DNA of 64,000 nt, from assembly GCA_903813345.2 (NCBI GenBank), contig CAIIXF020000004.1:16291513-16355512 (forward strand), written 5' to 3'. Each line of letters begins with the position of its first letter. Positions within the stretch are counted from its first letter, which is position 1. Both the position numbers and the translations under genes were made by a program. Below the pieces are notes generated by a model. It was not told where the DNA came from, did no database searches, and worked only from the letters and a program-made list of their open reading frames with translations. This DNA comes from Owenia fusiformis. Taxonomy: Eukaryota > Annelida > Polychaeta > Sabellida > Oweniidae. This document shows, piece by piece, positions 3,157 through 36,200 of this stretch.

Positions 3157-3258
3157 CTAAGCTGCAATCGCTGCCATGAATGCTTTGTTTTTTGGTGCTT
3201 TGTTCTCTGAAACAATGGCAATAGGGGCCCATGGGTACTCCTTAGCTTGGAGATATTT
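3157..3258 (-). CDS. Gelsolin-like gene, terminal exon
   Basis: The 102-bp exon follows acceptor TTTTTCCAG. It encodes [20 protein letters not shown] then [13 protein letters not shown] and the TAG stop. The 'A.KYL......P..I..V.E....K.F..A' layout is how three-domain gelsolins end. No clear AATAAA was seen on the minus strand below the stop. Confidence 0.88.
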   Translation of the reverse strand, partial: KYLQAKEYPWAPIAIVSENKAPKNKAFMAAIAA

Positions 3259-6200
3259 CTGGAAAAACAATCCCATATGTATGTTATATTGTAAACATAC
3301 AGTAAATGTCCATTGTTTTTTTCTTTATTGTTTTTTTCAACACATATTTTCCAACATTCTAGATCATGTAAGTATCATCTGAATGCACACACATTGATAT
3401 GATGAGTCATGGCATGTACATGTGCTTTGTCCTAATGAATTTCAACCAATCAGTGATCATATATATACACCAATGAAAAAGAATACTTGGAAAAAGGCCA
3501 TGCTTTTTCTTCACTTACTTTATATATAAAAGTTAATAATTATATGCTAAAAATGTATTTCAACCAATCCGTGATTATACACTAAATGTTCAAAAGCGTG
3601 ATATATATGAAAAGATGGCCATAGTAGGACAGGGGCTTTTCGCTTCCACTGATTTTTTATGTTAAAGCTATTAAATACATTCTTACATGAGCATATGACA
3701 TGCTGTTCTTTCTTTCATCAATGGAGGCTCCATTTCCAATCCACACAAACACCCCAGTCTCACTATCTCCACTGTCCAATAGGAACACATCCTGAAAGGT
3801 CAAAGATCAAGCATTACCCAATATGATGACCTCTTTGAAGGTCAGTGTTCAAATGTTATCCAATAGAAACACATCCTGAAACATCAAAATCATCCAATAG
3901 GATCACATCCCTGAAGGTCAACATTCAAAACTATATCCAATAGTAAAACATCCTGGCAAACTAAAAGTTCAAACATCATCCAATAGGATCATATCCTTAA
4001 AGGTCAAAAGTTTAAATGCTGTCCAATTAGGAAAAACACATTTTGAAATAGCAAGGACTAAATTACAACCATTAATTTCAAAGAAAAATAAAAGCTGATT
4101 GCTGCTAAATATCTAGCTGTAAATATTCAAGGAATTTATGCTAAATAATTATAAATAATATTGAGTCTAATCAAGATCAGATATTACATCATAAACTGTC
4201 AAATGGAACACATGTCAAGTTGTTTAGAATATATTACGCTTAAATGGAAATTTACTTTACACTGAAATTTACCTCTGAATCAAAGTCTTCCATGGTGACA
4301 TCACCAGTTTTCCTCTCGGTGAACTCTAGGTTTTCGGTCCTGTCAGACAATCTAAAATATAGTGAACAAGTTCTAGATATGCATGTTGTATTATTATCCA
4401 ACATTTGTACGCCTGGCAGCAAGACTCTGTTAGTATTAGTACCCCCCCACTCTGTTCTCATCTGTGGGTAGTGTTTATGGGGAAGAAATGGGTTGAGAAT
4501 GGGGAAGAAATGGGTTGAGAATGTGGGAGAAATGGGTTGAGAATGGGGAAGAAATGGGTTGAGAATGTGGGATAACAAGGTGTGAGATACACACAGAGTC
4601 TTGCATAATGGCATAAGTACATTTTGCAATCTAGTTTTGACAATCGAGTATATCCTGTAATAGTGTTTGGTAAATTCTGATTCAAATTCTCAAAATTGGT
4701 GAACACATCCCTATTTTACGAATAAATGTATCCTGTATGTACATTGTTAGTTTGTAAGTCATATAAAGAATTGAAATACAATGCTGTCAATAGCCTGAAT
4801 AAGTTTTGAAAAATTCTAAATTCAGTACAATTCTATGTGAATAGTACAATATTAATAAAATGTACAATATAGCTTTACCCCCCACCCCCTCAAAATAAGA
4901 CTGAATTTAACAATAGTGAAAAGTTAAATCTATTTCTTACAGTTCTCATCCATTCTCAGTTGACACATAAAAACAGACACAATTGATCAAATTTTGAGCA
5001 TAAATACAATCAGCCTAATTTGCTGAAAATGCTGAACATGCAAATTACTTATTCAAACCTTAAGTAAATTACAAGCAAATGCATTTAGAGGTGTATTGTA
5101 TTGTTAAACGTAGTGTTTAAGTGCAATATTGCAATATAAAGTGCAAATTTGAATCAAAACTGTAAGCAAAATCATTTGCACAAAATTGTGACATCGATAA
5201 ATTAATACATGCAAAAGAGGATTAATTACAAAACCTAATAATAACCCTACCAGAGATTTATTGATTTGAAGTGCTTCATCATTTTATATTACTAAATAGT
5301 AGTTACTTTAGTTACATAGGGTAGCTAGGTAGCCATAAAAATAGAACCATTAAATAGAAGAGCTTGAAAATGCTTTTTATTTGAAGCTTCTAGCGCAATT
5401 TTGAAGGAAATTGCATTTTGTAAAATTCAAAACAAATCATCAAAAAATATTTTTGCCTTGCTCACGCCATGGTTGATCGCATCCCCCCTGGCTGAAAACC
5501 AAGAAGGATATTGATGATCACACCACTCCCCCTGATTGAAAGCTGGCTACACCCCTGGTGGGCTTTGTAGAGACGTGTTCATAGATATAGTATGTTACAT
5601 ATATCAACTAGAACTGATTACAGAATAGTAATTATAACACAAGCTTTCTACCCCTTGGTGAAAATGACAGAATGGTATGGGAATGTATTTCATACCTACT
5701 GAGGTTCTTGGTACATAACGAGCGGGAATATATACTGTATCTAGCCAAGGCCCGGGGCGGGATGGATACACCATCCCGGTCCCGCTCCTGAAATTTTTTT
5801 TCACAATTTTTTTGAATTTTTTTCAAATTTAAAAAAAAAAAATTCCCATTTTTTCCAGGTATGAAAAAATACATCTGTTATGTACGGTCGGTTTTGGACA
5901 CAGGGTTTATCCCTAGGGAAGTATGTGTATATCCCTTGAGATAAAACCTGTATCCAAAACCTCCCAGTACATAACCCTTATATATTGATATCTGAGGGTT
6001 TAGGCTAGGACCCGGGAGAGCAACCTCCAGCCCCAAGATCCAATATCCCCCATCCTCTAGGCTGTCATCTTGCGTTATCAAGTTTTGGACTTGTAGAACA
6101 TAGTGACTGAGAGTGGGAACTGATGATGCTAAGCTGTGTCAATTTGAAATATGTGACAGGTGAATTGATAGACACATTTCATATTGATAAAAAGATGTCA

Positions 6201-9200: not shown

Positions 9201-12200
9201 CAAATTCTACAGAAGAAAGGCTCAAAACTTGTGACGTTTTAAAATCAACAGTACAGTAGAAGAGTAGAATCAAAAAGGAATTTAGTAAATTGACCTTGAG
9301 AAGGTCATTGAAGGTCAAATCTCAGATTTGAACTTCCGATAACTTGTGGATGATTTTGAAAAAAAAATTGGTCAATTTTAAGCAAGATGACCTTTTTGGA
9401 CACTAATCTGTAAAGAAATGCCAAAAAATTATGCTCTTCAATCAACTTTTACAGAGAAAAGTGTGAAAACAATGTGACCACAACTAAAAGTGAAATTTAG
9501 CAGATGGACTAACCTCTTCATCTCCCTCATCCACTGTGGTAGCTTCAGCCTGGCCATTCCTCTCAGCCTTCAAGGTCTCTAAGAACTGAGCCGCCTGAAG
9601 ATAAAAAAAATTCAGATAAATCCCTCGCACTGTTTGGCTTGAAACCTGTAGACATGATTAATCGGGATGTCTGCCTGCCTGACCAACCACCCATCCAACT
9701 GACCACCCTCCGGGCAAACAGATCACAAAATAGCAACCAAGGATGCAAGGAGACAAAAAAATATCCCAGAATCCATAGATGAACCTTGCAGCAGCCTAGC
9801 AGTTAGTTATGCTATGTAGAGATACAGCTCATCTATGAATTCCACCTCTTGTACTAAATATAAACAAAAACTACTCTTATACCTACATGTAATCATAATC
9901 CACTTGGAGTCATAATATTGTAACATGTTCACAAATGTGTAGCTGAAAAAGGGATTTCAAACTTGCTACATGTATAGCCATTCCAATTAAAATATCAGTT
10001 TTTTAAAATTAATTTAATGATAACTTCATATCTGTCAGTTGCACTGCACTTTTTCGATACCTTGGTCAAACCAATTTTATTGTATGCCTCTGAGATATGG
10101 TACAGAAAGAAGCATGCAGAAGCCATTGAGGCAATACACTTATCACTTCTTAAATGTTTGCTTGGCGCTGCACCGGTCATTTAAGGGGATGCTAGGACAC
10201 TATCCTTTAAAAATTTGGTTTTTGATTAAATATTGGATCACGATGAAAGCTTATGATTGGATGCATGTAATGTAACCATGGGAGCTTTAGAAAAGAGCTT
10301 TAGAATGATTTTTATTTGAAACTTCTAGCTCAATTTTGAAGGAAGTTACATCAATTTTTGTAAAATTCAAAATAAATCTTATTTTTTGGCTCACCCCTTG
10401 ACTGAAAACCTGTGGGTTCTCTTGGATCACTAAATGCAACCTATAACCACCATGGTATCTCAAGACTGAGAAGAAATGAGATTTCATGATGGTTAATCAT
10501 GATGGTGTACCAATGTAAAACCTCCTCATTATTTCCTAGATCCTCCCTAGAGAGGTTCATTCATAGTTCAATGTAAGAGTGTAAATAAATGGATACAGAG
10601 ACAAAACAAGAAAGATTTTCTGCTACAGCTTTAAATTGCCTTACAAGATATCAATTCAAACACATATGCAGAATGATGGTGAACCAGTGGTGAACACCTT
10701 TCCTTAAAATAACAGGCCAGTTAATGATAATATTTGCAAGGGTCTTATATTGATTAGTGGTCTATGCTAACACTATCCACATTCTAGACATTCAATTCAC
10801 ACATATGCTCTTGGACTATATGGAAATACTGCTAGTAAGTACTGTGAGTACATTACATATACCTTCATTTGTACACATCTTTTTACAATGGGCAGTTCCA
10901 GTAACAGCGAGGTGGAACTCCTGGTTACAGCTGGAAAATAACATTTTGGGAAAAAATTGCTATACCTGCACATGTTATTTTCGGGTACAAAATTAAGTAT
11001 GAAGGCATGTGTGTATTTCCTTCCTTTTTTCAGGAAAGTATCATCACATTGTCTACTTTTAGTAAACCTGGAAACAGGTCAAAACTTCAAAAGAAAATTT
11101 GGAAAGATAGAAAGCGTGGAATATTAGAATATCCTGGAGTTCCCATTGAACTCTGACCAGATTTACTAAAAGAAGACAATGTAATGATACTTTCCTGAAA
11201 AAAGCAAGAAAATTAACACATGCCTTCATACTTTATTTTGTACCAGAAAATAACATGTGCAGGTATAGCAATTTTTTCCCAAAATGTTATTTTCCAGCTG
11301 AACCCTAAATGGTTCGAGAACTTTTTATTTGCATTAATTCACACCATCTTGGAAGTTAAACATTCTAATATTTGGACCTCCTCAAGGTCAAATTAAATTC
11401 TAATGGTTGGCTAAAGTTTCTCCTCTTGTTGATCTTAATGATCATAATGTATAATGTCATGTTAGAAAAGTCCACTTAACTTACTATCTTTCACAAAATC
11501 AGATCCTTACAAACTGAAGGTTGAAGGGTCTAAATTTTGTCAAAACAAAATAATTCAAATAAAAGTAGTTGTAAGCAATGGAAAATGAGCATTAGGGAGG
11601 AATCAAGAGTTAGTTTTAGGTAGGATTGTTTGAAAAAAAGACTATGTAACATGACATATAACTCCATAACATAATTATAACACCTTTTACTAGTGTAATA
11701 TGCACCAATTAGGTGTTACATGTACTCACAAACACTCAAATGTCAAGTTCATGAGTCCATGTTCAAGGCATTGTGTGTTATCAAAACCTGATTATACCAG
11801 CCAAATCAGATGTACATGACAGTAAGCACCAATTATTGAAGTTCAGGATATCATACTCTTTTCATTAGTGATTTAAAAGAGAATGTTATCTATACATTTA
11901 CCCTCAAATCATTGTGACATGGAACTTCTCTCAAAGTCCAGCAGCCATGCAATTTGACAACACACTGGGCATTCATTTAAACCTATACCTCTCTCCAAAA
12001 CGCAATATGTGAACATCATTTTTTTTCCATTTTCAAACGACCGAAGAAATGCTTAAATTTAGGTTTGACATAGATATAAATGTTTTTTTAGCGTAAAATC
12101 AAAGCATAACCATTAACTTAAAAAATAAAAATAGTCGGTGCCGGGATTCAGCCCGGACCTTCGAAGTGACAAGCGAGGACGCTGCCACTGAGCTACCCAG

Positions 12201-15200
12201 GCATTGGTTATGCATCAATGTTATTTTAAGGACTATAATTAAACTTCTTTTTAGTAAGTCACGTGACACTCTAAATTTAGAAATCTACGAAGAAATTTGG
12301 TTACTGGCGAACCTCTCAGCAATTTAATGAACAATCGTCAAAATAACATCTTTATCGTGAGTATTTCTACACAGGTATTTGCTCCATTTGTTCATTATTG
12401 TATATTTTCTCATTAAAGCACAAAATATTACCAGGGACCCCGGGAACAATCTAAGATTGCGTTTCGGAGAGAGGCCTGACTTTAAGTTACACATAGCTAG
12501 GCAAGGTGTGTCCAATTCCACCCAATCAGCACAGGGTATGAACATTGCATGATACTAACTAGTCTTAAATGCACTCCAGGTCATTTTTAGATTACATCAT
12601 TTCATAATGTCAATTTGGCTGTTTAGTTGTTCAATTCACTCCCTCATCTCTTGTATATACAACCAAAAATAAGACTGAACACTGGTGAATCTACTTAAAG
12701 TTCTGACATGTGTACTTTATAAAGTTTAAACAAGCCCATGAGAAAAATGTCACATGGTTCATGCTTTAAAATGTAAAACAGAGTTAAAAAGAGTGTTAAG
12801 GAATAAAGTAAACAGGCATGTAGTCAACACTCTAAATTGTATAGAAATACAAGAAAATTCATTCAAATCTGAGAAGATTGTATAATTATCATGACTAAAA
12901 CAGCCTAGAAAGAAAAATTAAGACTAGGATTTATACACTTATAACATCTTGTAATTTTAGACTCAACAGACAAACATACTCTGGTGACGACAACAGTTGA
13001 ATAATCATCATGGCTGAGAAAAGAAATGTGGATTTGTTGAACCTGCCACTGGCAACAATTGACATGACTGAGGCTTTGGAAAATCCTGAGAAAATAGCAC
13101 CAAAAGTTGTAAAAGCAATGGAAAATGAAGGATTCCTCTACTTGAGAAACATTCCTGGGTTTAAGCCTGATGAATTATTGCAATGGACAAAATGGTTCTT
13201 CAATCTGCCCCTGGAGACAAAAATGGCAATATCGAAGAAATGTTTCAAAGAGGACAATTTGAATAGCTTCAGAGGTTACTTTCCAGTAATTCCTGGAGGG
13301 CATTCCCATAAAGAGGCTTTCGAAACGGGAAGTTTTGGTGATTTCGATCCTGTGAAGCAACAGAATCAAAAACTGATCAATGGCCGTCCATTGATGCGTG
13401 ATGTCACCTCTGAAGGAAACAGTTGGCCAAACACAGGAACTTCCGATGATGAAATCTACAGAAAAGTCATGGAGTATAACTATGATATTTATCGCAAGAC
13501 AGCGAGCCAAGTTCTCCAATTGATTGCAAGAGGTATGGGACTTGATCCAAACTGTTTTGATTATATGTTCAATCCATCCCCCCTTGCAACTTTAAGACTT
13601 ATCCATTATCCAAGCCGCGTGAATTTTCCCCCCGAGGAAATCCCTGATGAGGCCAGAGATGGGGATACCCTTATTACAACAGGAGAACATGCTGATACAA
13701 CATTCATTACCCTCCTTGCAACATTCGAAAACTGGGGGCTACAAATGCTGCAAAATGATACATGGGTTGATGTTCCCCCGATACGAGATGGTCTCGTTAT
13801 GAACATTGGGGCTTTAATGACGGATTTATTTGGCGGTCGATTAAAATCAACAATGCATCGAGTGATTGACCTGGGTGAGGACCGATACTCTGTTCCATTT
13901 TTCTATGAGCCTCAATTCGACACAGACATAAGTAAAACATTCGATGGAAAAGAGATTGAAAGTATTGGACGTTACCATCGGTACGGTCCGTGGATGTGTA
14001 ACAGAACCAGCCAATTTAAAGAATATGCTACAACGGATTTTGGTGTACTTGACTAAAACAATTCAACAAAATATTACACAAGACTTTTGTAACACATTAT
14101 GAATGTGTCACACTGATAAAACTGTATATGGGTATATGCACATGTTTACAAAAGCTCACTATGTAAGCTAAAAATTACACATACACCATTTAGGGGTGAT
14201 GCCCAAAGTTTGACAGTTGTGAATTAATTTCTTCTGATTGAACCCCCCAAAATCTTCCTTTTCCCTCCCCCCTAAACTAGCTCTGTTCTGCCACAACTGT
14301 TGGCAATTTTACATTTTGAATACTCTACAACTACTAATGTATGGTCACTTTTGAAAATTCTCTTCTTTTCAACATGGAAAATCCTCACTTCAGCAAATCC
14401 AGGTGTCATTTATATATGGTCATTTCTGTGTGATTTATATTTTATGTTTTAGAATATGAGTGTTTTAAAACCCCCACTTAACAAATATTAAACTCTAAAT
14501 AGGCGATACACGGAAAATAAATTAATTTCACTGGAATCAGTTTTCCAATATTAACAAAAACATGATGAAAGAAAAATTCAACCGAGACAACCTCTTTTGA
14601 CATGACCCATCATGACACAGCTCTTATGTCATGTAGGTACAAATAATATTTGTTATCTAGACATTGAACATACATGTCAATATAAGACAATGTAATTCTA
14701 GCCCAAGGTTGAATTGACTTTGAAACATACCGATGTACGTGCAGTAGAACATGTGTAAGTGGAACACCCTTTGGACCACTAAAAAGTGTTCCATTTGGGA
14801 GGTGTTCCACTTTCACAGGTTCATTAACATGGAGAAGATGGGTCAGGGAACTTTAAAAACATGGTTCCACTTGTGAGGTGTTCCATTTACAGAGGTGTTC
14901 TACTGTACATGTACTGGCATTAAGGTAATTTCTAACTAGGACACTCCCCTTTTAGGAGAAAAAGCCACGCATATAAAGTAAAACCTGTCTAATCCAAACA
15001 CTATTGGGACAGACCAAAAGTGTTCAGATTAACAAGTTTCTTCACATTTCAAGTTTTTCTCTATATGTGAGTCTATTGGAGATAACATTTGAACCAAGAA
15101 AAAGTGTTCACATTAAGATGTGTTTGGATTAGAGAGGTGTTCAGGTATATAAAGGTTTCACGGTATCCATCTACATAAATACTATCCACAAAATCATTGT

Positions 15201-18200
15201 AAAGTACATGTACCTTTGCACAAATCATATCTTACAAATCTTAATGCATTTTAAAGACTGATTATACCTTGATTATTGAAAATGTTAAAAAATTGCACAT
15301 GCATTTTTGTATCTTGTTATTTTTAAAGTCTGCAAATAACATGTTAAATATGTAACACCTATGCATTGACTAAAATAAATATATCTACATTTGAAAATAG
15401 TTGGTTTATCGCTAGCTTAATATCAGAAACATATTGAAATGTTAGATAATATATCATGGGACCCATTATGTGGTTAACTTAGCAGTACAACGTACAACTT
15501 GGCAGCTCAATGTACCCATTAGTGAAGCTTTCTACCATGGGCTTACTTCACGATATCAATGTCCATTTTTAATAGTGAACAACATCATACATAATGAAAG
15601 ATCTTTATTTAGTGAGTAAAATTGTTATAAGCCTTTCACATGTACAAAATCAAAATTATTGAAAAATAAAGTCTACTTGAATCTTCTCACGTGCAAAATG
15701 TGAATAACTGTAAGAACATTATTATAGAAGTCTGATATATACTTTCAAGTCCGTTCACCATTTTTCTTTCTTTTAAGTCTTTAGACATGCAATTCTCATG
15801 CTATTTTTTAGTAGTAGAATAGAATATTAATTTCATTATGACTTTGATATCATGGTTATAAAATCTGATCACAATATAGCCCCCAAGGGAACTATAATAC
15901 CCAATAATTGTTTTGCATCATAAATAAATAGTTGTCTTTTTATTTATTTATTTTGATTTACTGTAGATAGTAGATAAATGGTACTGCCAAGTTATTTCTA
16001 GGTTGGCATGCATTCTGCATTATCAAATTTACTAAAATTTCATTCATTCGTGGGCGACATCTGCCTTACGTTGTAATAGAATGAAATGGAAGTTGACACA
16101 TGAAAGTACAATGAAATAACAAGATATCCATTGTGAAAATGCCACAAGTTTTTCTCCCAAAATGTAGAAATATAGTCGATTCGTTCTTGGAGTTGAAAAT
16201 AAGAACTAAACCGTAGGAGCTTGTCTAGTTTCTATGTTGCTTTGAATGAATGAATGTACCTGTAAAGACTGGGATATGATTTCATTGGAAATGGTGATCC
16301 CCCATATTTTTACATCTCCCATTGGTAGAGCCCGCAATAATAACTGTACTACTTGTTTTAGCCTCAATTCTTGTATTGGTACCCTCTATTCAACTTCATC
16401 AATTTTTGTAACAAGGCTTTTACATGCAAATGACACCACCTGCCATTTGTAAAGATGCAGATCCCCACTATTGTATAACATGTGAGGTAAACAGGGGTAT
16501 GTACTGTGTGTAGAAGCTTTATCAAATATATATGAGCCTCACCATAGGAAAACCTGTTTTATCACAAAAATTTTAATTGTGCTACAGAGCCAAAAATGTG
16601 CCCAAGATTAGGAGGAAAATGTGCTAGGTTCAAATCAGTCTTTTTGAGTCTATATCTGCAAGGAAAAATTGTTAAGACACCAGCCATGGCTCATTTGAAA
16701 GGTCTCTTTGTGCTTTTAAAGATATAAAAAAATCAAAATCTTGAAAAAATCTGTGATAAGACCCCTTTTCCTGGCCTGGCTCATATACCTTATGTGATAT
16801 TCTGGAACCAAACTCACCAGCTGGAATATGCAAAGGTTATCTCATGGACATAGCAAATATAAGTAAACATATACTAAAATCCCAAAACTGGCATGGCTAT
16901 TTCGAGTTAAAAGGAGAAATAACACTCATATGAACTCATTTTCAGATTCAATAGAAACAAACTTCTGTAGAAATGTCATTACCTTGTATCTTTCCATGCC
17001 GGTGCTTCCGCTTCCGTTCCACTGGATGAAAGTGAGGCCAAGGTCAAGGATGAAGACATCGTCAGAGTTCAAACTCTCCCTCAGTCGGGGAACCTAAAAA
17101 AAATTTAGTTATAAGTAAAATGGAGTAACACTGTACCTCTTCAACACATATGTAAAAAAATGAATTCACACTGTACCTCTTTCGCGCATATGTAAAATGA
17201 ATTCACACTGTACCTCTTTTCGTGCAAATGTAAAATGGAGCAACATTGTAACTCTTCAACACATATGTAAAATGTAAAATGGAGCAACATTGTACCTCTT
17301 CAACACATATGTAAAATGTAAAATGGAGCAACATTGTACCTCTTCAACACATATGTAAAATGTAAAATGGAGCAACATTGTACCTCTTCAACACATATGT
17401 AAAATGTAAAATTGAGCAACATTGTACCTCTTCAACACATATGTAAAATGTAAAATTGAGCAACATTGTACCTCTTCAACACATATGTAAAATGTAAAAT
17501 GGAGTACCACTGTACCTCTTCAACACATATGTAAAATGGAGTACCACTGTACCTCTTCAACACATGAAAAAGGGAGTAACAATGTACCTCTTCAACACAT
17601 GTGTAAAATGGAGTAACAATGTACCTCTTTTGCGCATATGTAAAATGGAGTAACAGTGTACTTCTTTTGCGCATATGTAAAATGGAGTAACACTGTACCT
17701 CTTCAACACATGCGTAAAATGGAGTAACAACGTACCTCTTTTGCGCATATGTAAAATGGAGTAACAGTGTACTTCTTTTGCACAAATGTAAAATGGACTA
17801 ACACTGTACCTCTTCAACACATGTGTAAAATGGAGTAACAATGTACCTCTTTTGCGCATATGTAAAATGGAGTAACATTGTAACTCTTTAGCGCATATGT
17901 AAAATGGAGTAACATTGTACCTCTTTAGCGCATATGTAAAATGGAGTAACATTGTACCTCTTTAGCGCATATGTAAAATGGAGTAACAGTGTACCTCTTC
18001 AACACATGTGTAAAATCGAGTAACAATGTACCTCTTTTGCGCATATGTAAAATGGAGTAACACTGTACCTCTTTAGCAAATATGTAAAATGGAGTAACAT
18101 TGTACCTCTTTAGCGCATATGTAAAATGGAGTAACAGTGTACTTCTTTTGCACAAATGTAAAATGGACTAACACTGTACCTCTTCAACACATGTGTAAAA

Positions 18201-21200
18201 TGGAGTAACAATGTACCTCTTTAGCGCATATGTAAAATGGAGCAACATTGTACCTCTTCAACACATATGTAAAATGGAGTAACACTGTACCTCTTTAGCA
18301 AATATGTAAAATGGAGTAACAGTGTACCTCTTCAACACATATGTAAAATGGAGTAACACTGTACCTCTTTAGCAAATATGTAAAATGGAGTAACAGTGTA
18401 CCTCTTCAACACATGTGTAAAATGGAGTAACAATGTACCTCTTTTGCGCATATGTAAAATGGAGTAACAGTGTACCTCTTCAACACATATGTAAAATGGA
18501 GTACCACTGTACCTCTTCAACACATGAAAAAGGGAGTAACAATGTACCTCTTCAACACATGTGTAAAATGGAGTAACAATGTACCTCTTTTGCGCATATG
18601 TAAAATGGAGTAACAGTGTACTTCTTTTGCGCATATGTAAAATGGAGTAACACTGTACCTCTTCAACACATGCGTAAAATGGAGTAACAATGTACCTCTT
18701 TTGCGCATATGTAATAAAAAGGAGCAACATTGTACCTCTTTAGCGCATATGTAAAATGGAGTAACATTGTACCTCTTTAGCGCATATGTAAAATGGAGCA
18801 ACATTGTACCTCTTCAACACATATGTAAAATGGAGTAACACTGTACCTCTTTAGCAAATATGTAAAATGGAGCAACATTGTACCTCTTTTGCGCATATGT
18901 AAAATGGAGCAACATTGTACCTCTTTTGCACATATGTAAAATAGAGTACCTCCTCAACATATTGCTAAAATGGAGTAACACTGTACCTCTTCAACACATA
19001 CATGTATGTAAAATGGAGTAACACTTACCTCCTTGATGCGAATGTTGCCCTTGGAGCCATTGAATTTGAAGAGACGTGGCTTGTATTCCTCTGGAGTGAC
19101 CTTGTTGAACCCGGAATCAACACCTCCTCGCATTGTCCTGAAGTAAAATGAAGTTAATTAACTCATAGGGATGGTCTCCAAATGTTTTCAACAATAATGG
19201 AAAACCAAAATTAATTACATAATCTAGTTGAAAGCCCATGTTTAAACCTCACCCCTCTTTACAAGAGCAAATCTGAAAATGTTCATTAGCATTTAAATTA
19301 TTCACAATAACTTTCACCCATGAAAATGTCATATCCTCCCCTTACAAAATCAATAAAGTATTTTAAAACGTCTGACATGTTCTCTTAGCAGTACAGTGTA
19401 TGTTGATAACAGATCAATTTGAACTTTTACATGGTCTTTATGAAGCATGTTACTGAAATGTGGCAGAGCAGTACAATGGTTCAAAACTCATATCACAATT
19501 TGGAGAATATTTACATTGGTTCAATCCATCCATAAGACCAAGTAACAGTATTATTTTTATGTTTATTAAATAAATAATACAAACATATTAATGGAATTAA
19601 TAGAGAGGTTTCTCAAAACAGTTTATGGCTAAAACATATCAGCAACAGCATCTATTTTAATTGGTCTGCTATGCATAATTCTGGTGAATGCGTTAAAGAT
19701 TTTGGATATGTTGAACTAATAAAAACATTGTGCAAATCCTCATTAATCAGGCCCGTAGCCAGGATTTGCCAAGGGGGGTTCATTTTCAAAAATTTCCAGG
19801 GGGGTTCACATTTGACAATTTTGGCCCAAATATGGCTAAAATCACTTGATGAAAAACTGCATGATTTTGAAATAATTTTTGGCCAGGGGGGGGTTCACCC
19901 GAACCCTGCCGAGCTACGGGCCTGCAGTAAAATGAACAGATTAAAGGTATGTGTTTGCTGCAAATTCTACATTATACATTAAGTAATGGTGGCAACAGTT
20001 GTGGAAAACAAAATTTATTTTTTGTAAGATGGGCAGGGATGAATGTTGAATGTACACGTACTTAGGTGAAGGGGGTAAGTATCAATTTGCAAGATGGGAG
20101 ACTGTCATGTTCATACTGTTAGGGGAAGGGTGTCAATGTTAGTGGAATCTATGTGAATGACAAACTAATATTCTATGAGGGGGAGGAAATAACTGAAATT
20201 GACTCTGTATTTATAACTCCACAACTGTCAACTCATAAACTTCGTCTCTATGGGTCAACCGCATGCAGTTTGTCTATTCTACTATCATATATTATGAGTC
20301 TCATGCAATTCTACCGCACATGCAAGGCTAGGTGTCTCATTAGTGTTACTAAACTATGGGTTTTAATTATGGGCATCCCATTGCATCATATCTTCCCTGA
20401 CTGGTATGTTTAAATGACAAAGAGGGACGTTTATGATATGTCCATTAAATGTGTGAAATATGCATGATCCAAGAACGATTATATCTCAGGGTTCCAACTT
20501 TTTTTATTTTTTTTTATTTTAATCTCCAAGCAATTTGATCAATGCTGATTTCTCCGGCAAAGAACGTGCAAATGAACTGCAATAAAGATCCATACTAATG
20601 TCTTGATCACTTGTTTGGTTTTTAAAATGGAAACAAGACCAGAACTCACCATTTAAATTCTGAAGTACAAAATGACAGCTGCTTAAATTTGAATTTTGTC
20701 ATGAATACACGGCTCCATATATGGCAGAATATCGAGTTGGAACCCTGGGAGCAGCTCCAATCTTACCAGGAGTGTAAAAGGGAATTTAAAAAGGGAATAG
20801 AAAGCACACTTACTCCATTTGCTTAAAGTAGCCGCAGAATAGCGCACTCTCGTGACCCATCACCTCGCGATGCTGAACGGGTTTGTCATCAAGATAGGTG
20901 TCTAACTCAACTGTTTTATACGCTGCCGTACCATACTCATCCTGTAGCAAGGAGCCAAAGGTCAGAAATAAGCATGGGATAACTTTCAGCCTTGATAGTA
21001 GGGAAGGATATGATATCTTCGCCTTCCTTAGATATAATATTATAGTCTTTGTATGTTCATCAATGGTCAGAAATAAGCATGACATAATCTCGGCTTGATA
21101 TTAGGAAAGGATATGATATCCTGGCCTTCCTGAGATATGGTTCTAATCCTCATTTATTTATCCAGTGTAGCTTTATAGTATTTCAATCAGTCAATGGTCT

Positions 21201-24200
21201 GGCATGAGCATAAGATAATCAGAAGTCAGACACAAGTGTTGGATAATTTTAAAGGCTTTGATAAGTGGTGGATATATTCATATCCTTTCCCCTTTACTAA
21301 TATTCGTCTTGTAGAAGAAGCTGGATACAGAGGGGATGTGGGCAATAATTTCATGTCCAAATAAGGAATTGTCACAGGTTGAGAAAGCTCCACCTATTGG
21401 ATGAAAGCATTAGTAGAAGCTTACTTTAGTAAATTAAATAACCAGCACCCTGTAAACCAACAATGAGAAGTTATCTATTATTTTCTGTGTAAGGAGGTTA
21501 TGTAATTTTACCATGTAGGAAATTATCATAATTATGACATCTATATGCTTAAAACGGTTGATACAAATATGTACAGTTACACTTAGAATCGAAACAACAA
21601 TACCATCTATTGGCCAAAATCTTTTACTATTCTTAACTTATTTCACATTTATAATATGACGACAATCAAACATTTTTTCACATATAGATGTCAGATGTGC
21701 AGACTTATTCCCATCTCAATGGATTCTTACTCAAATGTGTTGAAATAACTTGAAAATAGTTCCGACTCATGGCCACACACTTCCCGATATTGGACGGCTT
21801 TGTCATCAAGGAATGTATCAAGTTCTACCGTTTTGTAAGCGGCAGTTGCATACTCATCCTATCAAATCAGGTGAAATATCAGTAATATGCAAAAAAGTAG
21901 AACCCTATGAATGCAGGCAGGGGCAGGATATGATATCCTTTCCCTCGTTTAAATTTCAGAAAATAGTCACACATAAGCATTGGATAAATCTGTGAATGTT
22001 ATTCTATACTTTTTCTCATTAATCACATTAATGGCTTATTAGTTTTTGTTTTGACTTTTTTTCTACTTTGGTTACGCCCCAGCATCAAGAGCCACTGGTT
22101 GGTCAATATTATATGCCATTCTTACATTTGGACATTACATAAGCAAACTGCTCACAATATCAAGTATTTCCTGTACACATGAAATAAGAATAAACTCAGT
22201 ATTTCTTTTAATTATAGAGCTACCTAAAGGTGGTGCCACTAACCTGTGAGCTATATCGGCCAATCCAGAAGTGGACATCATACTCGACGGATTCCTCATC
22301 CAGGTATTGCTGTAACATAAATCATGACATACTATATTTTTTCAATATTCATAAATAAAGGTACCTCAGCGGGAGATATATATATATATCACCCGCTCAC
22401 CTCAGATATCAATTATATTCCCGCATGTTATTTACCTATAACACTACTAAGTATGGGATAAATTTCAATATTCATAAGGTAGTCTGATGTATTAAGTGTG
22501 TCATAGATTTAATGAAGAATGCCGATGTACAATGAACAGGCAATAAAGACCAAGTAATAAAACCAAGCAAAAAAAGTCAAACAACAAAGACCAAGCAAAT
22601 AAAACCAAGCAACAAACATCGCTCAAGACATGGCAACAATCACCAAACAAGGCAACATGACAAAATGTCACTACCTAGTTGCTCATAATATTATGAGTTC
22701 AATCTAAAGTCAGATTTGAACTTTTAAGAACTTGTATATGAAATTTTTAAAAAATTGGTCAATTTGAAGAAAGTTGAACAATACTTTTTTACCTTGAGAA
22801 GGTCAATGAAGGTCAAGTCTTAAAATAAAAATCAGTTCTTAATTTCTGAGAACTTGTATATGATTTTGAAAAAATGGTCAATTTGAAGCAAGTTGAAAAA
22901 AGAAGAGAAGGTCAAATCTTAAATCTAAAGTCAGATTTGAAATTCAGAAAGCTTGTAGAGGATTTTGAAAAAGTCTGTCTTAACAGGTTTTGTTGAATTA
23001 TTGGAAGTTGTAAGAATTTGTTACAGATACCGGATGCCAACCACCAACTGCCAACCAACAACCACCAACTGCTGCCATAAAAAATGGAGACCATCACCAT
23101 GTTTTATGGCATAACAACAAATACAAAGCAATCAACAGAGCCTTAGCAACATAGACAAGCTAAATGGATAAATCAAATGCAATATTTTGCGTCCATCAAT
23201 TAGTTTCCCTGTGAAACTGATAATCATATACATAGTATGACCAATACATAGTGTTATCATCATATGCACAGTATCTTGTATGCAGACCAATACATGGCTC
23301 TAGGGCCTTGTTGAAAATTGCAAATTAGTGAATTATTCATGGTAAGATAATTACTAATAGAACCTAGCACAGCTTGTTGTATTTACTACATACAGGCATG
23401 GTATATGAGATACATACAGGTTGTTCATTATTTGTTAATGGGAAAATGCTCTCATTTCTATGAGGCTTGGAATCTCCAATGTCATATTGCTAAATATGGC
23501 ACTTGGTGAGCAGTATTGTACACTACAATACACAGAATGGAAGATTGTGTTACAGATATACAAGTGTAACTATCTATTACAGAGAAAATGGTTGCAATAT
23601 CAATATCAAGGTTAAGACATAACAAGAATTAAATCACTTTTTGTGTCTTGTAATATTACTATACCGCATCTAGCCTGACAAAAACACTGCTGCCATCTAT
23701 ATCCATAATCTATATCAAAACTGATTTCGATCATTAAGTTTTGAAAATTGAACAGGTTGGTGAAAGAGTGACGAGAATCTTTTAAACCATTACATCCACT
23801 TATGTTATTTTTGGCCATAGCAAGGCATGAGGCAATCATTACCTCACCAAAATTTCACTGAAAGGACGATTCTCGGTTTGGAGAACAGTCTCCTGGGCTA
23901 ATAATTTTTTTCATGAAAAATATAGAAATATTACCCAAATTAAACTATGAATATTCAAAAGAGGACATTTAAATCTACAAGATGTAAAAATAACAAATTG
24001 GTCTGAAGCAGGGATAATGCTCAATTAGACCGATTCAATAAAATACAAGTCTCGATTTGGGGAAAGAAGTTCATCAGTGTACTACACTAATATTTTTTTG
24101 CGAAAAATCTAGAAATATTACCCAAATTAAATTATGACTATTCAAAAGAGGACATTCAAATCTATATTATGTAAAAAAAATCAAATTTGTCCGAAGCAGG

Positions 24201-27200
24201 GATAATGCTCATTTAGATTGATGAACTTGGTTCTCCAAACCGAGAATCGTCCTTTATTTACTCAGATATTTTTCAACACAAACTGTGGGGATGAAGTCCA
24301 AAAGTTGTCATATATGTCCCTTAGGCTCAATTAGCCTCATCTATTTAATGTAACTTTGCCTCACCAAATCTTGCTATGTTCCTGTTATTAAAACCAACTT
24401 ACATTAAGCACAATGTATGAGTCTCCCTCGAAGAATTTCCCATATTGATCTTCTGGCCATGCTTCTACCTGGAAATTCTGAAAAATAATTGTGTTGAATT
24501 TTAATTTGCATTTTTTGATTTATTATTAATGGATGTTGAGTTACAGAATTCATACCTTTTTTTAAGGTTAGTTTATTTCATATTAATCATATTTAGAAAA
24601 CAATATAACAGTGGGTAAATATATGAAATGCAAGCCGAGGTCTTGTGACATTTTTGGCTTGTAGAGAATTCACATCTTGTTGTCGTATTCACATTTTCAA
24701 GTGCTAATCGCCTTGTCATGATGGCATTATAGGAATTTAAGTATTGGAGGAAGGGATTCAGCTTAGGGGGATAATGGAAAACAGGAGGAGGAATATGATC
24801 ACTTTGCATACAGAACAACACACTTTTATCATAGCATTCATATTTTGAAGTATAATGCAATAAATTTTGAAGTATTTTTCATTGTAAAATTAGATTTCGC
24901 TCTCAAACAGCCTGATTTTCTCGAAACTACTCACAACTGGGATATTTTACTACCATCTTTTAAAATCTTTCAAATGTCTGTATGCTCTTATAACTTCTAG
25001 ATTTTTCTAAAATCTTACTCATTTTCTGGCAATTCTACACAATCCAGAGAGTTGACTACATGCCTGTTTACTTTATTTCTTGCTAATTCAACTCATTTCA
25101 CTCTATAATTTGAATGAACTGTCTGATTTTCTTGCATTTCTACACAATCCAGAGAGTTGACTACATGCCTGTTTACTTTATTTCTTGCTAATTCCACTCA
25201 TTTCACTCTATAATTTGAATGAACTGTCTGATTTTCTTGCATTTCTACACAATCCAGAGAGTTGACTACATGCCTGTTTACTTTATTTCTTGCTAATTCC
25301 ACTCATTTCACTCTATAATTTGAATGAACTGTCTGATTTTCTTGCATTTCTACACAATCCAGAGAGTTGACTACATGCCTGTTTACTTTATTTCTTGCTA
25401 ATTCCACTCATTTCACTCTATAATTTGAATGAACTGTCTGATTTTCTTGCATTTCTACACAATCCAGAGAGTTGACTACATGCCTGTTTACTTTATTTCT
25501 TGCTAATTCCACTCATTTCACTCTATAATTTGAATGAACTGTCTGATTTTCTTGCATTTCTACACAATCCAGAGAGTTGACTACATGCCTGTTTACTTTA
25601 TTTCTTGCTAATTCCACTCATTTCACTCTATAATTTGAATGAACTGTCTGATTTTCTTGCATTTCTACACAATCCAGAGAGTTGACTACATGCCTGTTTA
25701 CTTTATTTCTTGCTAATTCCACTCATTTCACTCTATAATTTGAATGAACTGTCTGATTTTCTTGCATTTCTACACAATCCAGAGAGTTGACTACATGCCT
25801 GTTTACTTTATTTCTTGCTAATTCCACTCATTTCACTCTATAATTTGAATGAACTGTCTGATTTTCTTGCATTTCTACACAATCCAGAGAGTTGACTACA
25901 TGCCTGTTTACTTTATTTCTTGCTAATTCAACTCATTTCACTCTATAATTTGAATGAACTGTCTGATTTTCTTGCATTTCTACACAATCCAGGGAGTTGA
26001 CTACATGCCTGTTTACTTTATTTCTTGCTAATTCCACTCATTTCACTCTATAATTTGAATGAACTGTCTGATTTTCTTGCATTTCTACACAATCCAGGGA
26101 GTTGACCACATACCTGTTTACTTTATTCCTTGCTGATTCCACTCTTTTTCATTCTATTTTGTATTTTAAAACATGACTACCATGACATTTTTCTTCCAGA
26201 TAGAGAAATATGTAATCATGAACATCTGTTGCACATTTAGTTAAAAAACAAATCATTTATGATTTTATGTGCTATTGATTACCCTTTGAAAAACCTCTTC
26301 CAGGTTCTTCACTCTTAAAATAAGTGATCTCCCCTGCATTAAGGGAAGTGGGCACATCACCCACCTGAGATTTTGATTAAAGGCTAGCACCTACCTGAAA
26401 CTCTATTTACACCCACTCAAAAATGAGAAAAATCATGATGAATTGATACATTTTTACCAATTTTTACCAATTCGGTCTGAATCTTGTACCAACTTGAGGA
26501 AAAATCCTGAGGAAAACGCTAAATATTAGAAATTTAGCATGAGTTAGGGCAGAATGTGAGACAAAGCATGGTCAGGTTTCAAAATTCTAAAATCATCATT
26601 TGTGGTCAGAGATGAGTGTGGCGAGCCAATGAAGATTCAGGGTTAACAAATCTCTGACTTTCAATTCTATTGATTTGCATTAATAAGCGCCTTGAGACTT
26701 ATATATACAATTACGAGTTGAAAAAAGAGATCATGTTATTATTATCAGAATGTATCAGAAGTGCATTCATTTATGTTGAAAACATATTCATAAGGGTATT
26801 CAATATATTTTATTCATGCACTTTCAACAAGTACATATACTCATTGATCTTCCAATGCTTTTTCCTCAGCAGAGTGCTTCATACTAATATTGTGGTCAAA
26901 ATATATAATTTCTCCCCCTTTTGCATAGTGAAACAAACAAAAGGGTGTCATGTAATTTTGGCATATCACAGCTTTGATGCATTAGAGCATGACTTACATT
27001 GATTCTCCATATGTAGAGCTTGTTCCCAGCATCTGGGTCAACTGCATGCCACGCTGGCTCTGCCTCAGCAGACTCCTCTGCAAACAAATATGACAATTTA
27101 AGTAAACAAACAACATTCAGGAGGCAAACATGTAATATAAACAAACATTTTAAGTAAATAAACAAAAACAAATTCACCATAAGCAAACTCTAAAACATTC

Positions 27201-30200: not shown

Positions 30201-33200
30201 TGAAAAAAAGAAATAAAAATGTTTTTTAGCTCCAGAACCCATACGAATAGAAAGGTAAGACTATTTCCTTGAGACATATTGTTTGAAATCTCTTTTCAGT
30301 TAATCTCCCTATAAAGTACTTGAAAGTTCCTTTCAGGGTTCTCACTAGGCTTTTAGACTACCAAGATTCTCTCTAATGTCTAAAGACCGTCTTGCTCCAG
30401 AGTCTAATAGCTTTTCTGGAGTCTAAAGTGTTTTTTCCGGAGTCTAATTTTACAATTTTATCACATTATTTGTGGTAAAACTCTTGAGAAAACACATAAA
30501 ATTGGATACAAACAAGGAATAGGAAGTCAGAAACCTTTTATAAATGTATATTATGAAGAAAATAGGAAGATAATCTTAGTTGTATTTTGAAAAGTTTACA
30601 AATGGGATATCTCTGATCTTACATTGGGGAGAAGTAGTTGTGATACCACAAAAAATCTGAGGTCTAAAAATTTCCCCTGGTGGGAACATGGCACCTTTAA
30701 ATGGGCCCTTCATATCACTAGATGGATTTAGGTCAGAGGTCATGAGTGTGGAAAGAGTGTAAATTTTAGCTCCAGATATTTGTGTCATTTCTATGTGATA
30801 TATTCATGGATATTAATTGAAACTTTGCATAGTTGACTGGAATACACATAGCTACATGCATGGAATCTACCAATACAAAATAATTATTGGATATTCTGAT
30901 ATTTGATGGTGAAACAACAAAGACATTTGTAGCTAGTTCAGGGACCTGTTATTGTGTTTCAAAAATAAATGTCTTCAGTGCAACCTACAATATTACGAGA
31001 TCGAAAACACGCCAGATCTTCAACAAGTTCATCTATATCGGATTCTGAGCGTAGCCCACATCCAAAAATGGCTAAACCTGAAAACGATGTTCTCAAAACT
31101 ATCTTGGAGACTGTCGAGCAAAACAACAAAGCTTTGGTAGATATAAACATCAAATTAGATAGTGTCTCTTCTACTAACACCCAGTTGGAAGAGAGGATTA
31201 AACATTTGGAGGATACTAACACTAAATTGGTATGTACTGTAAATTTATTATGCCAAACGGTGTCTGATCACAACGTCCATTTCACTGAGCTCAAAGATGA
31301 TATAAACGACATTCGTTTTCGCTCGATGAAAATGAACCTCATCTTCTTTGGTGTGCCACAACAGTTCAACAAATCTCCACGATATTATGAATCACTTATT
31401 GAGGGCGTTCTCATAAAGTGTATGAAGGTTCCTCAAGATCTAGTGTTTAACCCAGAAAACCTTGGTGGCACTATTCGTATAGACATTGCACACCCCATTG
31501 GAAAATCTGGAAAAGGCCCTAGGCCAATTGTTGTCAAATTCTCTGATAGGTCAAGCGTTGAGGCCATTTTCAAATATGTGCATAACCTAAAAGGATCCAA
31601 GATACGAGTTTCAAGACAGCTTCCGAAAGAGATGCAGTCTCGTCGTGATGCCCAATTTGCAACCTTTAAGGACTTAAAGGGGACGGTAGACAACCCAAGT
31701 GCTGTAAAGCTTGTTCAAGACAAGCTATATAATGCAAGTGGACTTGTAAAACACAACTTCTCAAAAAATCCACTTCCTTTCCCTTCAAAATTGTTGCAAT
31801 CCCAACCCCCCGAACCAAGCCCTGGTGACACAGTCGATGGATTCAAGGCGTATATTTACAACATTGACAATCTTGAAAAAGCTACAGCAGCCGTGGCAGT
31901 CTTTCAAGCTTCTAGCCAAAAAGGCGTATCTCCATATGCTTACAGAATCAAAGATGATTCCAACCTTGTGGTAGGAAATGATGACTTGGGAATGATTGGG
32001 GCAAGTTGTGAGTTGGCCGATCTACTTGAGCAAGCTGAACTACAAGATGTTCTTGTTATTGTCCACAAGCCAAGTTCCAATATCATTGGACTTAACAAAT
32101 ATAATAGCCCAAGTCTCATAAATGCAGCAAAGAGTGCGTTGGCAAACTCTTTCCTAACTGATGCTGCCATTCTTGACACTCTGTCATAAATGGTTAATTA
32201 TTTACCATTCTTTAAACAGACAGGTGTTGGACTTTTGCTTTTTTGTTTTGATTAGAGACCTAGTATTATTTTTTATGGGTAAATCAGATTGATCAGTCCC
32301 CGGTTATACAATAAGTGTATGTAGTCACCTCATACCTGTACATAAACACTGTACATGTACTTTGATTGGATTTGGCCTTCTGTTTTTTCAGAGGTTACTA
32401 TTGATCTGTACAGGTTTACTGAACTGTGTAAATAGCCACTGTATATAACTATGTGATTATCTATGAAATACAAACTCTTTATAATTGGTAGTTACATGTT
32501 TTTGCGAGTTAGCAAAATATTATGGGATCTTTCAGTTCACATAATTCAAATGCTGAGATATAAGCAGTAAAACATTTACTTTGTTTTGAATTTTCAGATC
32601 AGGTTATTATCATATGAAATTGAATGAGTTTGCCTAATTTTATTTGCCTATTTTTGAACCAGCAGTACTCCATATTCTCATTCAGTTTGAAGTGAAATAT
32701 GCGATATTTCTTTTTTACTCAAAGGCTTAAAACAGTTTTGCTTGACAAACCTGATTACAAGCTGTTTTCTTTTTACTGTTGAGTTCCATTTAGAGTTATG
32801 AATTCAGTTGTAAATAATTATATATCAAAGCTACTTGATGCTTATAAGCATGTGCTTCATGTATTAAATACTGTTCATGTTCTTTGCATTTTTTTTAAAA
32901 AATTGTTTCAATTGAAATGTCACATTTTTCTGGTTTTAACTTTGCCCAGCTCCTACTCTTAAAATATGTGTGCTATTCCTTTTATTGTTTGGTTGGGTCT
33001 AGTTGATTGCCTTTGGAGATCACTGAGGAAAGGTGAGGGTTAATGCCAAGTGAACAAGTCACATGGAGGGCTATCATTGGCTTATTTAATGTATATAAAG
33101 TGTATTTAAGAAATGATAGCAAACCTGACGAGTGGAAATCAAACATCAGAGCACTGAAATATGATGGTTTCATCCTTCTTATGATATCTTTTTTCATTCT

Positions 33201-36200
33201 GATTCTTACTTTACTGAAAATTAACATCCAAGCAGAACGTTTCTGGAAACTTCAAATTATGCTCCTATGTGTATTATATCATTCAGTTATTGGCCCGTGT
33301 CTTGTATACTGTATTTATGCTATTGCTTGGTCATCTTGCACTAAATCGTATATTCTTTTCAGTGTGAGATTCCACAGAATACTCTGTATTATGACTATTT
33401 TTCCAGGTTCACCACTTTTGATGTACCTAGTTGATTGCACATTTATATTGAAACTCAGCGGGGATATTGAATCAAATCCTGGACCTCATATTGAAAACTC
33501 TATAAATGAGTTACCAATCCTATTTTCTAACATAAATAGTCTTAAAGCAAATTACTTATCAAGATTTGAAGCCCTTAAATTTAGGGTTAAGCAACATGAC
33601 ATAAAAGTAATTGGTCTCTGCGAAGTGGGAAATCTCACAAAAAATGATGTGGAAAACTCCTTGATTATCAACGATTTTCAAATCCTCTATTATACTAATA
33701 AAAACCGTGGATTAATTATTTATGTTCATAACTCAATTGAATCTGAAATAATTCATGATCTTATGAATGACATTCTTGGAAACGTTTGGATAAAGCTGAA
33801 AATAAGTGGAAAATATTTTAATTATGGATTATTTTATCGGTCTCCCTCTCAGGATCAAGCAACTCGCAATACATTTTTTCAGTTGTTGTCAACAAATCTT
33901 GAGACTGCTCAGAAATTGCCTGGAACCTTAATTGTAAATGGCGATTTCAATGCTAGAAATAGTTTTTGGTGGAGTGATGATAAAACTGATAATCCTGGAT
34001 TAAATCTTCAAAACTTAACATCTGACTTAAATATCATTCAACTTATAGATGAACCAACTAGAATTCGGAAGCGAGAGGAATTATTAACCAAATCATGTAT
34101 TGACCTTGTTTTTACTGATGAAATCAATGTTATCTCTCATTTTAAAGTGATGGCCCCTATTGGAAATTCAGATCACTGTTCAATTTTGACAAACTTAAGG
34201 GTAAATATTCTAAAGGAACCACCTACTAAGAAAACTATTTGGAAGTACGATCATATGGACTCAAATGACTTAAATGATAGAATTATCAGCTTCAATTGGG
34301 ATGAAATCCTTCTTTTGGATGATGTTGACATTGCTACTGAAAGATTCTCAAATAGCCTTTTTGATATTTTCAAAAATTGTATACCCAATTTTGAGATTAA
34401 TCACAAATCTACAGATCAACCATGGTTCTCCCCTAACATCAAAAAAGAGATCAACATTCGTGACAGATTGCATCACAAATTCAAACGTTCAAATAATCCT
34501 GACTTTTTTACTAAATTTAAGACACAGAGTGATAAGGTAGTCAAATTAATTAAAGAAGCTAAACAATCGTATATTGAAAATACTTGTGAAAATATATCTA
34601 TTCTTAATTCAAACTCATCAGACTATTGGGTACTTCTTAAGAAATTGCTAGGTAAATCCTTTGACACATCACTGCCTTTTTTACATTTAGAAAATCCTAA
34701 ATTATCAGCTGGTACTTCTATTGAAAAGGCTGAACTTTTTCTCAAATTTTTTACCCAGAAAAATCATATTAATATTGTCCATCCAGAAGTGTTACCAGAG
34801 TTTCCTACTTTATGCAACAATAATTTATGTAGTATACAAACTAGTGAAGAAGAAGTTTTAAAATTATTGAAAGATTTAGATTTATCAAAGGGGGGTGGCA
34901 GTGATGGTATCACAAATAGGATGTTATTTTATTCTGCAAACAGTTTAGCCAGTCCTCTTTCATTATTGTTTAATAAGATATTAAATTCACATTCATTCCC
35001 AAAGGTTTGGAAAGAGGGTATCATAATACCTCTCCATAAGAAGAAAGATAAATCAAATATTGAAAACTATCGACCAATAACAATTTTAAATTCAATGTCC
35101 AAAATCTTAGAAAAAGTGCTTTACAATAGAATCTTTAATCACATGAGTCAGAATAATCTTTTCTATGACCTCCAATCTGGTTTTCTCCCTTTACATAATA
35201 CCACATCTCAACTTGCCTATATTATTCATTGTATCCACGAGGAGTTAAATAATGGTAACAATGTCCGTACAATCTTTTTGGACCTTGCATCAGCATTTGA
35301 TGTTGTCCCTCATCATCTTTTGCTTCATAAAATATCAGCTTATGGTATAAAAGATGACTTACTCTTGCTTTTAAAGTCCTATCTTTCTGGTAGACAGGTT
35401 AAAGTCAAGATAAATGAAAAACTTTCAAATTTGTCTGAACCAAACTTTCTAAATGCAGGTGTACCCCAGGGTAGCATCTTAGGGCCTTTGATGTTTCTTA
35501 TCTATATAAATGATCTACCAACTAATTTAAAATCCAAAACGTTTATCTATGCAGATGATACTTCAATTTTTAGCCCCTATCCAAAAGATCAGCCACAAAA
35601 TTGTCTTGATTTACAACAAGATCTTAACAAAATATATAACTGGGCCCAAACATGGCAAATGAACTTTAAAGCCTCAAAATCGGTTGACTTGACTTTCACT
35701 TCACCAACAACTGTTATTCAAAATGAACCAATTTTATTTTTGGGAACTAACGCAATAGATAAACAAAATACCCATAAGCACCTGGGTATCATTTTAGATC
35801 AAAAACTAACCTTTAAAGAGCATATTAACGAATTAATAAAACAGTCTCAAGCTCTGCTAAACCCTTTTAAAAGGTTGACTCATGTTTTAAGATCTAAACA
35901 CTTAGAAACCATTTATAATGCCTTCATTTTGAGTCGAATTGACTATGGTGATATCTTATATTCTAGTGCTCCTGAATTATCTTTGATAAAGTTAAACAGA
36001 CTTCAATATAATGCAGCTTGTTTGATAACTGGCGCTTTGCATGGCTCTAGCACTGAGAAGGTGTTAGATATTTTAAATTGGACAAAGTTACCAGATAGAA
36101 GAAAATCTCATTTATGTACTTTTCTTTTCAAAAGCAGACATAATTTAATAGCACCATATGTAAGTCAAGTTTTCAATGGTTGCAGAAATATTCCAACTCG

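Follow-up and report, generated by a model that had tools for sequence, protein, structure and literature searches.

A candidate pair of mutually exclusive tandem exons in a three-domain gelsolin gene of Owenia fusiformis

The window analysed here is a stretch of 64,000 nucleotides (nt) from the annelid Owenia fusiformis (assembly GCA_903813345.2, contig CAIIXF020000004.1, positions 16,291,513 to 16,355,512 of the forward strand), and positions without a locus name are counted within it. Its minus strand carries a gene of the gelsolin family, in which one exon of the first gelsolin domain (G1) is present in two neighbouring copies, termed A and B. We consider it highly probable that A and B are an old, selected, mutually exclusive tandem exon pair in a three-domain gelsolin gene, with B as the canonical version.

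The gelsolin gene and its duplicated exon

The exons of the gene were placed by tblastn with open frames from five paralog loci, and five exons were shifted by one base to meet splice sites (Table 1). The short parts between exons 7 and 8 and between exons 8 and 9 were not located. Pfam Gelsolin matches number 30 genome-wide at E-values up to 10, and three of them fall inside the window. With a cut-off of 21 bits, G2 (29.6 bits) and G3 (25.5 bits) score above it and the G1 exon alone (18.6 bits) below; spliced G1 clears it in either version, with 41.5 bits for A and 49.5 bits for B. The stop codon, at 3157, follows after G3. Since three gelsolin repeats are followed by a stop, the gene looks like a three-domain gelsolin of the fragmin/severin/CapG type.

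A sequence-only reading of this DNA had described A and B as two open exons of 128 base pairs (bp), each with an AG acceptor, a GTAAG donor and phase 0 to 2, and this description is borne out. The boundaries (slashes) read ATAG/GATGAG...TTGA/GTAAGA in A and ACAG/GATGAG...TGGA/GTAAGT in B, and the pyrimidine tract of the acceptor is slightly poorer in A (11/16) than in B (13/16). The exons on either side of the pair match either copy in phase. Protein identity, earlier put at about two thirds, is in fact 31/42 residues (74%); the lower figure suits the DNA, which is identical at 85/128 bases (66%). The introns around the pair measure 385, 789 (middle) and 1676 nt and have only short elements in common. 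Protein searches of the assembly, in which only the best candidates were scored, found A and B once each, in their own place.

These observations bear on two trivial origins of the pair. Assembly errors, or two alleles laid side by side, are a common source of false tandem copies in general. Nothing was found here in favour of such an artefact, and the 66% DNA identity with saturated synonymous sites (see below), the introns sharing only short elements and the single place of each copy render it scarcely credible. Just as remote is a leftover of tandem gene duplication, by which A would be part of a separate gelsolin gene. Two of the paralogs are tandem genes, as this origin would have it, but in a search of the 12 exon peptides against window bases 1-45000 only A and B match each other while the rest are found once, and both copies lie between one upstream and one downstream exon with matching phases.

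Table 1. Coding exons and intronic elements of the window gene, and G1 start exon copies in two paralogs.
Feature	Position	Strand	Basis
First coding exon found (true start may lie further upstream)	38473..38551	-	tblastn
Upstream coding exon	26998..27077	-	tblastn
G1 start exon, one copy here, duplicated in the C5 paralogs	24403..24477	-	tblastn
Exon preceding the A/B pair, ends in phase 0	22244..22309	-	tblastn and frame test
D1-D2 elements upstream of exon A, including near-palindrome GGATATCATATCC	21911..21987	-	
Exon A, derived copy, G1 helix aA to linker start, 128 bp, phase 0 to 2	21731..21858	-	
Related D1/D2 elements upstream of exon B, pairing partners on either side	20956..21246	-	
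Exon B, canonical copy of the duplicated G1 exon, 128 bp, phase 0 to 2	20814..20941	-	
Three TGCATG hexamers in the intron after B	20262..20324	-	
Element downstream of B, can pair with 21000-21020, looping out B	19322..19342	-	
Exon following the A/B pair, phase 2 in	19029..19137	-	tblastn and frame test
G2 exon	16983..17093	-	Pfam match and tblastn
Exon after G2	9514..9594	-	tblastn
G3 start exon	4273..4351	-	tblastn
G3 exon, overlapped by Pfam Gelsolin match	3687..3791	-	Pfam and tblastn
Last exon found, after G3, carries the stop codon	3157..3258	-	tblastn
G1 start exon, C5b, first copy	L002:9967-9893		
G1 start exon, C5b, second copy	L002:9355-9281		
G1 start exon, C5a, first copy	L001:7678-7604		
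G1 start exon, C5a, second copy	L001:7069-6995		

Reading frame, age and selection

Four splice forms were tested, and only the A-only and B-only forms keep an open frame across the next exon. Including both copies breaks the frame, as had been claimed, with a stop inside B, 88 nt ahead of the next junction. The form without either copy has a stop in the next exon, again 88 nt ahead of the next junction. By the usual rule both of these transcripts would be sent to nonsense-mediated decay, and it is very likely from the frames that a productive transcript contains either A or B, never both or neither. A frame rule for recognising mutually exclusive exons has been published (PMC5740500, PMC6071210). 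Lack of room and a mixed U2/U12 pair were considered as causes of the exclusion and rejected, because the middle intron is 789 nt long and the sites are GT-AG. The predicted mutually exclusive splicing, as proposed earlier, is well supported by this frame logic and by the selection described next.

A and B differ at 8, 7 and 28 first, second and third codon positions, respectively (43 differences in all). Synonymous differences per site amount to 0.955, which is saturation, and nonsynonymous differences per site (dN) to 0.21. When 43 differences were placed randomly on exon B, 20,000 times, none of the neutral simulations kept 31/42 residues (maximum 24, mean 16), none reached 28 differences in third codon positions, and the frame remained open in 20%. 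The skew among codon positions and the saturated synonymous sites indicate that both copies are old and that, ever since the duplication, selection has acted on both at the protein level.

This constraint weighs against two other accounts of the pair. In the first, A is a fossil exon that splicing now passes over, and B alone is used. The fact that B resembles the family profile and vertebrate gelsolin more closely, the slightly poorer pyrimidine tract at the acceptor of A (11/16 versus 13/16) and the existence of a fossil exon copy in a paralog, C5a, would all agree with it. A freely evolving copy would, however, lose its protein identity, as the simulations illustrate, and the splice sites of A are intact, unlike those of the C5a fossil. 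A loss would have to be very recent to fit, and we regard a fossil A as very unlikely. In the second account, to which we give an even smaller probability, the pair is mainly an on/off switch, in which joint inclusion or skipping is regulated, the resulting transcripts decay and the protein difference matters little. The position of the stop in both bad splice forms, 88 nt before the next junction, would suit such a switch, and two predicted intron helices (see below) could form at once and cause both exons to be skipped; a switch would nevertheless have no need of a second exon under protein-level constraint.

Five other places in the genome match the exon, namely two tandem genes on C5, one place on C9 and two on C7, and each has one exon copy in the stretches fetched. 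The exon has the same 128-bp length and phase 0 to 2 in the C5 genes, is single in both and is alike between them at 125/128 bases. Residue identity is 31/42 between A and B, 34/42 between A and C5, and 35/42 between B and C5. An exon tree of 7 rows and 42 residues joins A, B and the C5 copy in one group (support 93/93) without inner resolution. Together with this tree, the near-equal distances, which are the sole basis of the dating, suggest that the exon duplication is roughly as old as the C4/C5 gene split.

The C5 sister genes contain an exon duplication of their own, as both have a tandem second copy of the G1 start exon (75 bp, phase 0 to 0). In C5 this exon begins at the position of Phe49/Asp50, residues that touch actin (PMC5368644). 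No frame rule forces a choice between the copies, since 75 is a multiple of 3. The second copy in C5b is open, has AG and GTGAG sites and shares 17/25 residues with the first copy, from which it differs at 6, 7 and 15 first, second and third codon positions. Its counterpart in C5a has an in-frame stop and no donor, yet differs from the C5b second copy at only 7/75 bases. TGCATG stands immediately before the acceptor of the first start-exon copy in both C5 genes. The window gene has one G1 start exon, and no clear relic of another was found in its two neighbouring introns. The C5a copy, broken at so small a distance from its sister, suggests that disused copies show decay quickly, while A and B have stayed intact even with saturated synonymous sites. 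By this comparison, dead exon copies in gelsolin paralogs look dead, and A and B do not.

Protein versions and intronic elements

In the numbering of mature plasma gelsolin, A and B differ at positions 99, 111, 116, 119, 123, 128, 131, 132, 135, 136 and 137. The long helix was taken as residues 96-112, with its start at residue 96 as our assumption. Only G99A and Y111F lie within it (2/17 positions), and 9 of the 11 changes follow it. Asp109, Glu97 and Glu121 are identical in A and B, and both versions retain the long helix and the Asp109-type residue of the interface Ca2+. In gelsolin, the long G1 helix inserts between actin subdomains 1 and 3, Asp109 is a ligand of the interface Ca2+, and His119 is buried next to His86, facing the second helix (PMC5368644); position 119 is Tyr in A. 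The two versions probably grip actin alike and differ in how the second helix packs and in the start of the linker. The view that the isoforms differ in the main actin contact was therefore overstated, with the helix changed at 2/17 positions and the three acidic residues kept; its other half, a difference at the linker start, stands, as most changes fall in the strand that follows the long helix, in the second helix and at the start of the linker. Identity to vertebrate gelsolin is 26/42 for B and 21/42 for A, and the best match to solved villin and gelsolin structures reaches 157 bits for B and 147 bits for A. By these family comparisons, B is the canonical version and A the derived one.

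The introns before A and before B have related elements in common, including a near-palindrome. Pairing was judged by ungapped helix score against shuffles and against random layouts. For the intron before A and the middle intron, the best helix (21943-21921 with 21126-21104, -29.9 kcal/mol) flanks A, and its score is reached by 1/200 shuffles. For the middle intron paired with the intron after B, the best helix (21020-21000 with 19342-19322, -27.1 kcal/mol) flanks B, and 0/200 shuffles reach its score. The third pair, of the introns before A and after B, is unremarkable (43/200 shuffles). A 211-base intronic stretch upstream of B has itself as its sole DNA match in the genome, in a search that skips common words. 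We also note a minisatellite-like run of ATATCATATCCT units at L006 (G000:C7:27909000-27909800), which resembles the near-palindromic elements beside A and B.

The hexamer TGCATG, which we take to be an RBFOX-type site, occurs three times within 63 nt in the intron after B; nowhere else in the window, on either strand, do three of these hexamers start within 100 nt. Of nine introns or intron stretches counted, five have 2, 1, 3 (after B), 6 and 5 hexamers and four have none, among them the introns before A and between A and B.

Several observations weigh against our reading of the pair and of its control. A scores below B in the family comparisons made (Pfam, solved structures and vertebrate gelsolin). 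Among random layouts of the same size, drawn from the window and the paralog loci, 16/300 reach the score of the first helix, 33/300 that of the second and 1/300 both, and in an earlier control the first was reached in 8/160. Both the pairing and the TGCATG cluster are post hoc observations. Because each helix engages its own copy of the middle element, the two are not strict competitors and could form together. The core palindrome also occurs elsewhere in the genome, at 44 sites with at most one mismatch versus 13 for a reversed control, and some of the 8 such places fetched have similar surroundings. The C5 introns around the single 128-bp exon were found to be without pairing elements and without TGCATG. 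As regulators of the choice between A and B, the intron pairing and the TGCATG cluster are suggestive only.

The mechanism that we favour can be outlined as follows. One exon of a three-domain (fragmin/severin/CapG-type) gelsolin gene would have been duplicated in tandem long ago, and A and B would now encode the second half of the first actin-binding domain in two alternative versions. With the Ca2+-binding positions and helix core kept in A, and the strand that follows the helix, the second helix and the start of the linker altered, A probably tunes activation, the Ca2+ response or severing instead of replacing the actin contact. Complementary intronic elements, by looping out A or B, may decide which copy is used, and an RBFOX-type protein on the TGCATG cluster after B may contribute; both suggestions are offered with reserve.

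The introns of the gene hold other features. A 37-bp minisatellite (17111-18948, 48.5 copies) fills nearly the whole intron 17094-19028 that follows exon 19137-19029. This intron contains 44 GAGGTA donor-like sites, compared with 0.19 per kilobase on the rest of that strand, and the minisatellite was perhaps seeded at the splice donor of that exon. An intronless 2-oxoglutarate-Fe(II) oxygenase frame (Pfam 2OG-FeII_Oxy, DIOX_N) lies on the plus strand at 13001-14056. The first gelsolin intron found contains two long plus-strand frames at 30969-36759, presumably a retrotransposon without long terminal repeats (non-LTR), the second with what we take to be a 2A-like motif near its start.

Comparison with known systems

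The A/B pair belongs to a known kind, that of tandem-duplicated exclusive exons; its occurrence in a gelsolin gene is apparently unreported, on weak evidence. No report of a duplicated or exclusive gelsolin exon was found among the literature matches listed, which cover few subscription papers and are weak evidence of absence, and neither PMC9741552 nor PMC5740500 mentions gelsolin by name in its main text. The exclusive exons of PMC3203266 belong to coronin-1D.

Exclusive exons that keep active residues while varying their surroundings amount to a natural mutagenesis experiment. If A and B are exclusive, they would reveal where G1 tolerates tuning while still binding actin, and splicing would join gene duplication and Ca2+ among the routes by which animals diversify actin severing. 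With exon pairs in the window gene and in two tandem sisters, one pair of which is dying, the birth and death of exon choice can be compared within one genome. A wider proposal, tentative and on balance doubtful, is that G1 of the three-domain gelsolins in this lineage is built from swappable exons (A/B here, the Phe49/Asp50 part in the sisters), and that in the window gene intron pairing that loops out one exon or the other, together with an RBFOX-type factor that favours B, would allow tissues to adjust the Ca2+ or activation threshold of severing.

Like other tandem-duplicated exclusive exons, A and B would be used one at a time by frame logic, a property predicted here from the sequence. 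Exons 5a/5b of SNAP25 (PMC10676425) are similar in being homologous neighbours of equal length and phase, ancient, and with key residues kept. In human, 236 substitution events are described (PMC9741552); unlike those exclusive exons, the present pair sits in a three-domain gelsolin-type gene.

The intron pairing of Dscam and srp (PMC6071210) is comparable in that complementary elements flank each exon and related ones lie upstream of both. These upstream elements look as if duplicated with the exons, which fits the duplication model of PMC6071210; in contrast to Dscam and srp, the pairing in the window gene is only predicted, with weak statistics.

Vertebrate gelsolin (GSN) has a homologous G1 with the same Ca2+ residues, and its isoforms arise by alternative splicing and start codons (PMC12211294). 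GSN has six domains, unlike the window gene. The contrast drawn earlier with the secreted and cytoplasmic forms of vertebrates is only partly apt, because the window gene looks three-domain. The gelsolin family has "three or six" domains, with three in fragmin and severin (PMC4654503). The window gene resembles fragmin, severin and CapG in having three gelsolin domains and then a stop, and its G1 matches fragmin, CapG and gelsolin structures; it differs from them in holding two versions of half of G1.

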